Notes under the pieces: generated by a model
Told to the model about the DNA's origin: nothing
The model's input: only the letters and a program-made list of their open reading frames with translations
The model's database searches: none
Source of the DNA: an uncultured marine group I thaumarchaeote
GTDB taxonomy: Archaea > Thermoproteota > Nitrososphaeria > Nitrososphaerales > Nitrosopumilaceae
Assembly (NCBI GenBank): GCA_902606965.1
Contig: CACLIK010000003.1
Span: 1-51,821, forward strand
Direction of reading: 5' to 3'
Length of the DNA: 51,821 nt
Translations under genes and position numbers: made by a program
Part shown: positions 2,176 through 13,271 of the stretch, one piece after another
Layout: each line of letters starts with the position of its first letter
Position numbering within the stretch: the first letter of the stretch is position 1

Positions 2176-3072
2176 ATGATGGCAAGTGCATTTTGTCCAG
2201 CTCACATTACAGGTTTTTTCAAGGCGGAGCTTGAGGGAAAAGATCCGAATCATCTTGGTTCGCTGGGTGCTGGATTTTCAATTCAAAAGGGAGTAAAGAC
2301 AACAGTCATTCTAAGTTCTAGAAATTCTAGTAATACAACAAAATTCCATATCCAAATCAAGGGATTCAAAACTGGCGATGTTCGTGTTTCTGAATATGTG
2401 CTAAACGAGTTTCTTGCTGACAACGATGATTATTTTGTTGACGTGGTTCACGAGCTAGATGTGCCTGTGGGATATGGGCTTGGCTGTAGCGCAGCTGTTG
2501 CATTATCATTAGCACTTGCACTGAACCAGGCATTGGATGCCGGCTACTCAAAAACAGAGGTTGCACAAATCGCCCATTTGGCTGAAATAAAATGCAAGAC
2601 TGGTCTTGGTGATGTCTTGGCATCATATCATGGTGGGTTCGAGATTCGTACTAAATCTGGCGCACCTGGGGTAGGGGAGCTTGAGAAGATAGATCCCAAG
2701 GAGAAGCTGGATGCCCTGATAGTTTGCTTTAACCCAATCTCCACTAAGAAGTTCCTAGACGAGAAAATTTCCCTAGTGAATGGATTGGGAAGCAAGATGG
2801 TTCAGGAACTAATCAAGTCCAAGGACATAAACGAATTTCAGGATAAATCGATAAAATTTGCAAAATACATCAAGGTGGTGACCCCAAAAATGAGCAGGGT
2901 TGTTAGTGAGCTTCGTAAAAATGGGATAAAATGCGGCGTTGCGTTGTTTGGCGAGACAATCTTTTCATTGGTGCCTTCCAGTGAAAAAAAGAAGGTTTTA
3001 CAAATCTTAGAGAAATATGATGGCCTTATTCTTTCTTCAAAAATTGATAATTCCGGTGCCAGATTAGATTAA
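2176..3072 (+). CDS. Pantoate kinase (archaeal CoA pathway)
   Basis: A 298-aa GHMP-family kinase. The ATP-binding loop PVGYGLGCSAAVAL at residues 97-110 is the GHMP glycine/serine-rich motif, and the N-terminus (FCPAHITGFF) and C-terminus (GVALFGETIFSLVP) match archaeal pantoate kinases. It phosphorylates pantoate to 4-phosphopantoate, the archaeal alternative to bacterial PanC/PanK chemistry. It is first in a four-gene run with 4-phosphopantoate-beta-alanine ligase, PanB and CoaBC, which supports the assignment strongly. The ATG pair at 2176/2179 leaves the exact start open by one codon. Confidence 0.9.
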   Translation: MMASAFCPAHITGFFKAELEGKDPNHLGSLGAGFSIQKGVKTTVILSSRNSSNTTKFHIQIKGFKTGDVRVSEYVLNEFLADNDDYFVDVVHELDVPVGYGLGCSAAVALSLALALNQALDAGYSKTEVAQIAHLAEIKCKTGLGDVLASYHGGFEIRTKSGAPGVGELEKIDPKEKLDALIVCFNPISTKKFLDEKISLVNGLGSKMVQELIKSKDINEFQDKSIKFAKYIKVVTPKMSRVVSELRKNGIKCGVALFGETIFSLVPSSEKKKVLQILEKYDGLILSSKIDNSGARLD

Positions 3073-3089
3073 AGATTACTTGTGGTGGT

Positions 3090-3830
3090 TTGTTGAATAT
3101 TCCTAAATCTCATCCGCGCTTTGTTTCCCTCAGTATACGCGAGAAAATTGTCAAGGGGTATAACGAAGGTCTTGTTGCAAAAGAAGGTCTTTTGGCTCAC
3201 GGACGTGGTGAGGCATTTGATTATCTGATGGGAGAAAAAACTACCAAAACTGCAAAGGCTGCTATCAAGGCTGCTGCAGCCAAATTGCTATCTGCCCAAA
3301 ATCCAGTAATCTCGGTAAATGGAAATGTTGCAACACTTTGCCCAAAAGAGATTGTCCAGTTAGCCAAAACAACCAAGGCCAAGATTGAGGTAAATTTGTT
3401 CTACTATGATGAGGCTAGGAAGAAAAAGATTGAAAAATCATTGAAAAAGGCTGGTGCAAAGCAGGTTTTAGGCACGAATCAAAGGTCATATCGCAAGATT
3501 GGTGGTCTAGACAGCCCTAGACGTATAGTAGACAAGGACGGAATTTTTGTGGCAGATGTCGTATTGGTTCCACTTGAAGACGGAGACAGAACTGAAGCAT
3601 TGAAGAAGATGGGAAAAACTGTCATTACCTTTGATCTTAATCCACTTTCCAGAACTGCCCAGAAAGCAGACATTACAATAGTAGACAATATCATCCGAGG
3701 AATGAAACTTCTTGTCTCAGCTTGTAAGAAATCAAAACCAGTAAAAACCAGCTTTAACAACAGAAGGGCTTTGTCTTCTGCAGTTTCAGAAATTAAGAAT
3801 AATTTGAAGAGGAGAGGATCACTTGCATAA
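3090..3830 (+). CDS. 4-phosphopantoate-beta-alanine ligase (phosphopantothenate synthetase, PPS)
   Basis: 246 aa, full length for the archaeal PPS family. Recognisable stretches are IPKSHPRFVSLSIREKIVKG at the N-terminus, AHGRGEAFDYLMGE, VNLFYYDEARKKKIEKSLKKAGA and DLNPLSRTAQKADITIVDN near the C-terminus. It joins 4-phosphopantoate to beta-alanine with ATP, giving 4-phosphopantothenate, and works directly after the preceding kinase. Start: TTG at 3090 or 3093, preceded by a GGTGGT Shine-Dalgarno-like run; no ATG is available nearby. The 3' end overlaps panB by 8 nt. Confidence 0.9.
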   Translation: MLNIPKSHPRFVSLSIREKIVKGYNEGLVAKEGLLAHGRGEAFDYLMGEKTTKTAKAAIKAAAAKLLSAQNPVISVNGNVATLCPKEIVQLAKTTKAKIEVNLFYYDEARKKKIEKSLKKAGAKQVLGTNQRSYRKIGGLDSPRRIVDKDGIFVADVVLVPLEDGDRTEALKKMGKTVITFDLNPLSRTAQKADITIVDNIIRGMKLLVSACKKSKPVKTSFNNRRALSSAVSEIKNNLKRRGSLA

Positions 3831-12569: not shown

Positions 12570-12857
12570 ATGGACGATCCCACCGGTGGAATGTGGATTT
12601 ATCTGATATTTCTAATTATTCCGCTAGCACGAATTATTCCTAGATTATTGCGCAAGTATAGGAACAAAGGCGTTATGCCAAGATCAGATCAGCAATACTC
12701 TCAGGAGGAATTTTTCACAAATCAAAAAATGCCAGAACCACCAAGATTTAGAGAACCAGAACCACAAGAACCACCAAGATTTCGAGAACCAGAACCACAA
12801 CCACAACCAAAGCCTGACAAGAAAGATGGTTGGGTTGGAAAAGACGATTTTAAGTAA
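12570..12857 (+). CDS. Membrane-anchored protein with proline/arginine repeat tail, 95 aa
   Basis: Residues 8-25 form one membrane helix (GMWIYLIFLIIPLARIIP), followed by a basic stop-transfer segment (RLLRKYRNKG). The tail has two nearly identical repeats, PPRFREPEPQ, encoded by a 30-nt direct repeat at about 12735-12795, then a PQPQPKPDKK linker and a charged end. The tail is low complexity and probably extended; it may be a scaffold or spacer. No family recognised. Confidence 0.6.
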   Translation: MDDPTGGMWIYLIFLIIPLARIIPRLLRKYRNKGVMPRSDQQYSQEEFFTNQKMPEPPRFREPEPQEPPRFREPEPQPQPKPDKKDGWVGKDDFK

Positions 12858-12866
12858 TAAAAATAG

Positions 12867-12998
12867 GGTGTGACCCCCTCACGCAAAACATCTTTTGGAG
12901 ACTACCTCCAGTTGCTCTTCCAAGAGAGTTTCAATTATTCTGTTTTGCGAGGTCACACCATTCAGTCGTAAGCCTTGTGAGCTTTCAGCATCGCAGGC
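12867..12998 (-). ncRNA. Candidate structured RNA, strand inferred
   Basis: Two 9-bp helices nest: GGTGTGACC (12867-12875) with GGTCACACC (12951-12959), and CGCAAAACA (12882-12890) with TGTTTTGCG (12941-12949). Inside them are two hairpins, TGGAG/CTCCA (12896-12910) and CTCT/AGAG (12915-12926), making a multi-branch junction. A separate hairpin pairs AGCCT (12971-12975) with AGGCT (12994-12998), extended by TGTGA/TCGCA. On the minus strand there is an AT-rich TATA-like element at about 13007-13019 and a T5 run just past 12867, so I favour that strand. Not recognised as SRP, RNase P, 5S or a box C/D RNA. A 93-bp MITE with terminal inverted repeats is the alternative. Confidence 0.55.
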
Positions 12999-13016
12999 TA
13001 TACTACTCTATAATAT

Positions 13017-13271
13017 TTAAGATTGAGAAACATCTGTCTCTTTTAGGATCAATACTTCACCGTCTAGTACATTATAGTTTACCAACGCGCGGTCCGGATC
13101 AAAATCTACATGTGGCGATTCTTCCCTGCATAATGCAAGCTTGACATCTTTTTGTAACCGAAAATGCATTCTTGAACCAAGTATAACGTCCTTTATTCTA
13201 GTGGATTTCTGAAATGTAGTTTCCCATGTTCCTTTTGACGTCTTTACATGGACAAGAACTTGATTTACCAT
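13017..13271 (-). CDS. Ubiquitin-like (beta-grasp) small protein, 84 aa
   Basis: The longer frame continues upstream into the divergent gene, so I take the ATG at 13271. The order of elements (strand VNQVLVHVKTSKGT, strand TTFQKSTRIKDVI, helix, then strands ending DPDRALVNYNVLDGEVLILKE) follows the beta-grasp fold; the last piece matches the typical ubiquitin-like pattern of a short helix, a turn and DG-hydrophobic strand. There is no C-terminal Gly-Gly, so conjugation is unlikely; a YukD-like or adaptor role is possible. Lies divergent from the nuclease gene with 57 nt between starts. Confidence 0.55.
   Translation of the reverse strand: MVNQVLVHVKTSKGTWETTFQKSTRIKDVILGSRMHFRLQKDVKLALCREESPHVDFDPDRALVNYNVLDGEVLILKETDVSQS

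Follow-up and report, generated by a model that had tools for sequence, protein, structure and literature searches.

The window analysed here, a 51,821-nucleotide stretch of DNA from an uncultured marine group I thaumarchaeote of the family Nitrosopumilaceae, contains on its minus strand a folded RNA gene of about 135 nt, with a three-way-junction fold, its own TATA box and a T tract. The features of the locus, in the order in which the minus strand is read, are the following:

13017..13271, minus strand: 84-aa ORF without a Pfam match, upstream of the RNA and on the same strand
13014..13020, minus strand: TATA box TTAAATA, with its first base 29 nt 5' of the micro-ORF start
12962..12991, minus strand: predicted leaderless micro-ORF ATGCTGAAAGCTCACAAGGCTTACGACTGA, encoding MLKAHKAYD*, nine codons plus TGA
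12967..12987, minus strand: P1 hairpin, within the micro-ORF
12949..12958, minus strand: P2 5' strand GTGTGACCTC, beginning 3 nt past the stop codon
12942..12948, minus strand: P3 5' strand GCAAAAC
12915..12926, minus strand: P4 hairpin CTCTT-GG-AAGAG, of variable sequence, with compensatory changes
12896..12910, minus strand: P5, a conserved hairpin, TGGAG-GTAGT-CTCCA (family consensus GAGAG-GNAAU-CUCUC)
12883..12889, minus strand: P3 3' strand GTTTTGC
12878..12882, minus strand: GTGAG, a one-sided 5-nt bulge separating P3 and P2
12868..12877, minus strand: P2 3' strand GGGGTCACAC
12859..12863, minus strand: T5 tract, the likely 3' end of the transcript
12570..12857, plus strand: 95-aa ORF without a Pfam match, convergent and tail to tail with the RNA

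The stop codon of the upstream 84-aa ORF overlaps the TATA box of the RNA. P2 can be extended by one pair (12959/12867), and P3, in which 12948-12942 pair with 12889-12883, can be extended to 9 bp. T-rich tails are found 3' of P2 in most members of the family. The original prediction, made from the letters of the stretch alone, posited two helices separated by an asymmetric loop, two internal hairpins, a flanking hairpin, a TATA-like element and a T5 tract. The two helices are P2 and P3, both on the minus strand and separated by the one-sided bulge of 5 nt at 12882-12878; the internal hairpins correspond to P4 and P5; and the TATA-like element (13020-13014) and T5 (12863-12859) are both present. 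The flanking hairpin (12987-12967) exists as well but forms the interior of a nine-codon ORF that had been missed; the first description was right about the structured RNA but incomplete with respect to its 5' part, which is a conserved, apparently leaderless micro-ORF.

Folding alone sets the element apart only moderately (z = -3.1 on the minus and -5.9 on the plus strand), so that comparison with relatives was needed. In the alignment of relatives, substitutions in the outer stem turn A-U into G.U when read on the minus strand and into A.C when read on the plus strand, and hence the RNA was assigned to the minus strand; an RNA on the plus strand, despite its better z-score, was rejected on the same grounds. 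The alignment used for the analysis of covariation (A4) includes 37 distinct, diverse homologues, in which 95.4% of the cells are paired and 15 of the 27 pairs are altered on both sides. Double-sided changes occupy 75 cells compared to 16.0 in shuffles, none of the 500 shuffles scores as high on any of the five covariation measures, and sliding the partner columns by 1-3 positions reduces pairing from 95% to 34-53%; the helices put forward originally are thus decisively supported by covariation. The consensus is a 17-bp helix made up of P2 (10 bp) and P3 (7 bp), bulged on its 3' side only; it encloses the variable hairpin P4 and the conserved hairpin P5. P1 is more weakly supported (79% of cells paired; 17 double changes vs 7.8) and is present in most members but weak or absent in some. 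Given that P1 covaries, part of the ORF region is constrained as structure, too. On this comparative evidence, the element is almost certainly a conserved structured RNA gene.

Additional structural features were considered. A pseudoknot formed by the P3/P4 linker with the 3' tail showed some promise within one clade but is unsupported across tail types. By inspection, no tandem G.A/A.G pairs that would indicate a kink-turn were found at the P2/P3 bulge. In the window's genus, P5 (12896-12910) holds GGAGGU, a perfect Shine-Dalgarno-like sequence within a hairpin; elsewhere, the sequence is usually GAGAGG. Pairing of this GGAGGU to the 3' end of 16S rRNA was rejected as a general property because P5 is different in one class of copies. 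Members of a diverged class (L216, L236, L238, L223, L225 and L226) have another P5, of the GGCAAGAGAAUGCUUUUGCC type, together with the same micro-ORF and P2.

No Rfam 15 family matches the element at either gathering or permissive thresholds; the best E-values at the element, to unrelated lncRNAs, are 2.4 or worse, and only tRNAs were detected elsewhere. The archaeal RNase P RNA (RF00373) and SRP RNA (RF01857) are encoded by separate genes, found in 33 and 35, respectively, of 41 genomes (the SRP RNA of the window's own genome is located at G000:C2:47302-47613), and no box C/D was identified in the element by inspection. All these results agree with the initial statement that the RNA does not match tRNA, 5S, SRP, RNase P or box C/D patterns. 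Its designation as an unassigned multi-branch structured RNA of the minus strand is borne out by the lack of an Rfam match, the compensatory changes throughout and the TATA spacing of 155 of the 158 members.

A DNA search of 61 genomes gave strong matches, with E-values of 5.4e-23 or better, in six other genomes of the window's genus, one of these with two copies. Further copies in the window's own genome, another check suggested at the outset, did not materialise: only a single copy was found, in an assembly that is 63% complete. A first covariance model (R1) recovered full-length members in distant genera, with E-values down to 4e-17, and a pattern scan of named genomes yielded records of Nitrosopumilus, Nitrosarchaeum, Marine Group I and Nitrosopumilaceae. 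The refined model (R2), built from the 37 diverse members of A4, matches 209 of the 400 genomes sampled from the order and 44 of the 300 sampled across the phylum. Every one of these genomes belongs to Nitrosopumilaceae, those from the order representing 18 genera, and no match was obtained in any other family among those sampled in these two sets. Genomes that carry the RNA have one to five copies. Of the near-complete Nitrosopumilaceae genomes, which number at most 131, no fewer than 127 have the RNA, or at least 97% (127 being the near-complete genomes with the RNA in the order sample and 131 the total of near-complete genomes for the family). The covariance search gave no match in four genera of the family (g5, g30, g32 and g33), which implies that the RNA is either dispensable or unrecognisable there. 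Exact-pattern scans of viral contigs produced no match. The Nitrosopumilaceae RNA pattern also occurs at four loci (L138, L141, L086 and L097) in records named Hyphomicrobiales, Chitinophagaceae or Nitrososphaeraceae, an indication that these metagenome contigs were mis-binned or misnamed.

At its commonest locus, the RNA is flanked on one side by a divergent gene for a short-chain dehydrogenase, identified by a Pfam match, and on the other by a convergent ORF of membrane type, about 143 aa long. Other copies, including that in the window, occupy different loci with unrelated neighbours. In 137 of the 150 copies, the first ORF downstream is convergent and thus encoded on the opposite strand, so that most copies are stand-alone genes with no gene behind them to regulate. 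At most of the loci in the window's relatives, the flanking genes are shared, and the loci are inherited across genera, which argues against a mobile element. In several relatives of the window, the RNA is closely preceded, on its own strand, by a gene for an Lrp/AsnC ligand-binding domain; this is the case at L042 (-278 to -41 relative to the ORF) and also at L043, L044, L048 and L057; one genome (G030) has such a gene at both of its copies, and the window has none. Genome G026 carries, besides a full copy, a remnant (L041, G026:C3:44352-44443) that lacks the 5' half and consists of P5, the 3' strands of P3 and P2, and the T tract. At L227 (G271:C184), two full copies, 3001-3121 and 3310-3429, share one orientation at a distance of about 300 bp; their ORFs differ, encoding MPMIVTPIN (nine codons) and MPIVPTVD (eight codons).

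The distance from the TATA box to the micro-ORF start is 29 nt in 138 members and 26-30 nt in all 155 of the 158. In these genomes, the TATA-like hexamers upstream of 496 long protein-coding ORFs are most frequent at -26 to -30 relative to the ATG; as the spacing in the RNA equals this gene-wide peak, the micro-ORF occupies the position of a leaderless gene. The spacing expected of leaderless genes is met, and location of the transcript 5' end at the start codon is inferred from it. Transcription from the RNA's own promoter into a minus-strand transcript of about 130-140 nt is likewise an inference, no RNA-seq data being available.

The micro-ORF itself is defined by start, length and stop. 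When aligned at the TATA boxes, the initial 87 sequences conform to this rule without exception, and in the complete set it is met by 155 of the 158 members (146 with nine codons and nine with eight). Among 89 distinct ORFs, the start codon is ATG in 83, GTG in five and TTG in one; the stop codon is TAA in 49, TAG in 23 and TGA in 17, and never TGG; 81 have nine codons and eight have eight. The stop codon is separated from P2 by 3-4 nt in 143 of the 155 members. A shuffled sequence passes the identical acceptance rule in 1.9% of trials, and all 23 groups with ORF interiors less than 70% identical retain the micro-ORF, as do members with weak or little P1. The groups are only partly independent of one another, and membership was itself decided by the acceptance rule; even so, the contrast between 155 of 158 and the 1.9% chance level is large. 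The encoded peptide shows no sign of conservation: the 89 distinct ORFs specify 81 different peptides, and among ORF pairs that differ by a single substitution, the changes are distributed over codon positions 1, 2 and 3 as 4/8/3, without an excess at third positions. Three members lack the standard ORF. In L229, the stop codon has mutated to CGA, and the frame runs on to 12 codons; L052 is a diverged member with a four-codon frame; and L221 (G143:C1:696135-696258) occupies the ancestral dehydrogenase locus but is A+T-rich and decayed, with both the ORF and the helix broken. The same genome (G143) has a second, intact copy, so that L221 provides a natural pseudogene control. Taken together, the comparisons make it highly probable that selection acts on the start, length and stop of the ORF and not on the peptide. 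Preservation of the boundaries and length without preservation of the peptide suggests a role for translation itself.

How translation might contribute can be outlined as follows. The RNA would be made from its own promoter, with transcription starting at or beside the start codon, and the archaeal ribosome would initiate directly on the leaderless AUG, an inference for which neither a transcript nor a footprint has been seen. The ribosome would open P1 while translating the micro-ORF and, upon reaching the stop codon, its leading edge would lie against the base of P2, leaving the folded domain intact; this geometry is derived from what is generally known about ribosome footprints. Because the ribosome would reach the stop at the base of P2, the micro-ORF can be viewed as a device that loads and positions the ribosome. 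The folded domain would then be an effector in trans, acting on the ribosome or from it; it might, for example, delay release or recycling, divert leaderless initiation as a decoy, or recruit a protein to the ribosome. This positioning mechanism falls somewhat short of an even chance, considering that translation is inferred from conservation alone and no phenotype has been seen. As an explanation of the whole, a trans-acting RNA whose leaderless mini-ORF loads a ribosome that terminates against the fold is the best available and is about equally likely to be right or wrong.

The strongest competitor, which is unlikely but remains a serious possibility, is a trans-acting structured RNA that needs the micro-ORF only to be stable or to fold. 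A ribosome translating it, or parked on it, would protect the 5' end against 5'-3' decay, and a stop this early would spare from unfolding an effector domain that acts elsewhere, for instance, by binding a protein. A stop located just before P2 and an unconserved peptide fit such a shield equally well; however, the RNase P and SRP RNAs in these genomes are ordinary structured RNAs, matched over their full length, so that a shield is not generally required. Loading and positioning of the ribosome is rated the most likely role of translation, with a protective or folding role close behind.

The possibility that the RNA is not translated at all, with the AUG and the UAR/UGA triplet merely coincidental to a transcription-start motif and to P1, is improbable. 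Covariation of P1 is compatible with it, and the constraint on ATG could partly reflect an initiator effect, but the stop codons interchange, GTG and TTG starts occur, lengths vary by whole codons, and the ORF is retained where P1 is reduced or missing. Even less weight can be given to a dual-function RNA or mini-mRNA in which the peptide of 8-9 residues would be the active product (a signal, toxin or arrest peptide) and the fold a 3' UTR. The translation signals are indeed conserved, and dual-function sRNAs of the SgrS/SgrT type or the RNAIII type with delta-haemolysin similarly combine an ORF and a functional RNA in one transcript; in the present family, by contrast, the peptide is minute and unconserved (see the peptide counts and codon-position distribution above), the fold is strongly conserved, and no match exists outside the family in the genomes sampled. 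The least probable but one is a cis-acting role, either as a leader-peptide attenuator or as a 3' antisense regulator of the neighbouring gene. A short ORF directly preceding a stable fold is the anatomy of attenuators of the trp and tna type, and the RNA ends beside the 3' end of a convergent gene; yet, unlike attenuators, the RNA stands alone, the downstream gene is convergent in most copies, neighbours are unrelated between copy classes, and the diverse peptides and the codon-position counts reveal neither conserved regulatory codons nor an arrest peptide. Finally, an inverted-repeat mobile element (MITE), originally named as the main alternative, is rejected as hardly conceivable on account of copy number, synteny and inheritance: up to five copies per genome, the 3'-half remnant in G026 and the pair at L227 could be construed in its favour, but the window's genome has a single copy, flanks are syntenic, loci are inherited across genera, helices show compensatory evolution, and promoter and ORF are kept at fixed distances (target-site duplications were not systematically searched).

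Among known systems, the ribosome-positioning reading brings to mind the bacterial tmRNA (ssrA), which is likewise structured and engages the ribosome through a very short frame that ends beside a helix. The window RNA differs in having no tRNA-like domain and no Rfam tmRNA match; tmRNA has such a domain, which is charged with alanine, and a resume codon without a start, whereas the archaeal family has an ATG, GTG or TTG start in 155 of its 158 members, with the ORF beginning at the predicted 5' end of the transcript and encoding an unconserved peptide. The trans-acting candidates of Weinberg et al. 2010 (PMC2864571) are similarly lineage-specific, covarying RNAs of unknown function. In the Downstream-peptide motif from the same study (PMC2864571), a fold is paired with a short peptide gene; in the Nitrosopumilaceae RNA, by contrast, a leaderless ORF of fixed length precedes the fold. 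Nitrosopumilus, Cenarchaeum and Thaumarchaeota are absent from the text of that paper (PMC2864571), and a 2020 paper on ribosomal leaders makes no mention of these organisms. No description of the RNA was found in the literature, with the caveat that subscription papers, such as early work on small RNAs in the ocean, were outside the search, so that an earlier, unnamed sighting is possible. Since there is neither an Rfam match nor a description that could be found, and each of the resembling classes fails a tested defining feature, the RNA is considered a new class. It is rated categorically new as a class of RNA; novelty of the mechanism has not been shown.

Altogether, the Nitrosopumilaceae, which drive nitrification in the sea, rank among the most abundant archaea, and a strongly covarying RNA that is nearly universal in this family, often multicopy and not represented in Rfam amounts to a gap in the basic knowledge of these organisms. 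Conservation of ORF boundaries and length without conservation of the peptide is unusual and points to translation itself. A tentative proposal, which is plausible but more likely to fail than to stand, is that the RNA belongs to a ribosome-engaging class that acts in trans to control how ribosomes are released, recycled or made available, by way of a mini-ORF, leaderless, constant in length and independent of its peptide, that loads a ribosome and leads it to terminate at the conserved fold. If this is true, it would be a new class of ribosome-engaging RNA, nearly universal in one of the most abundant archaeal families of the ocean.
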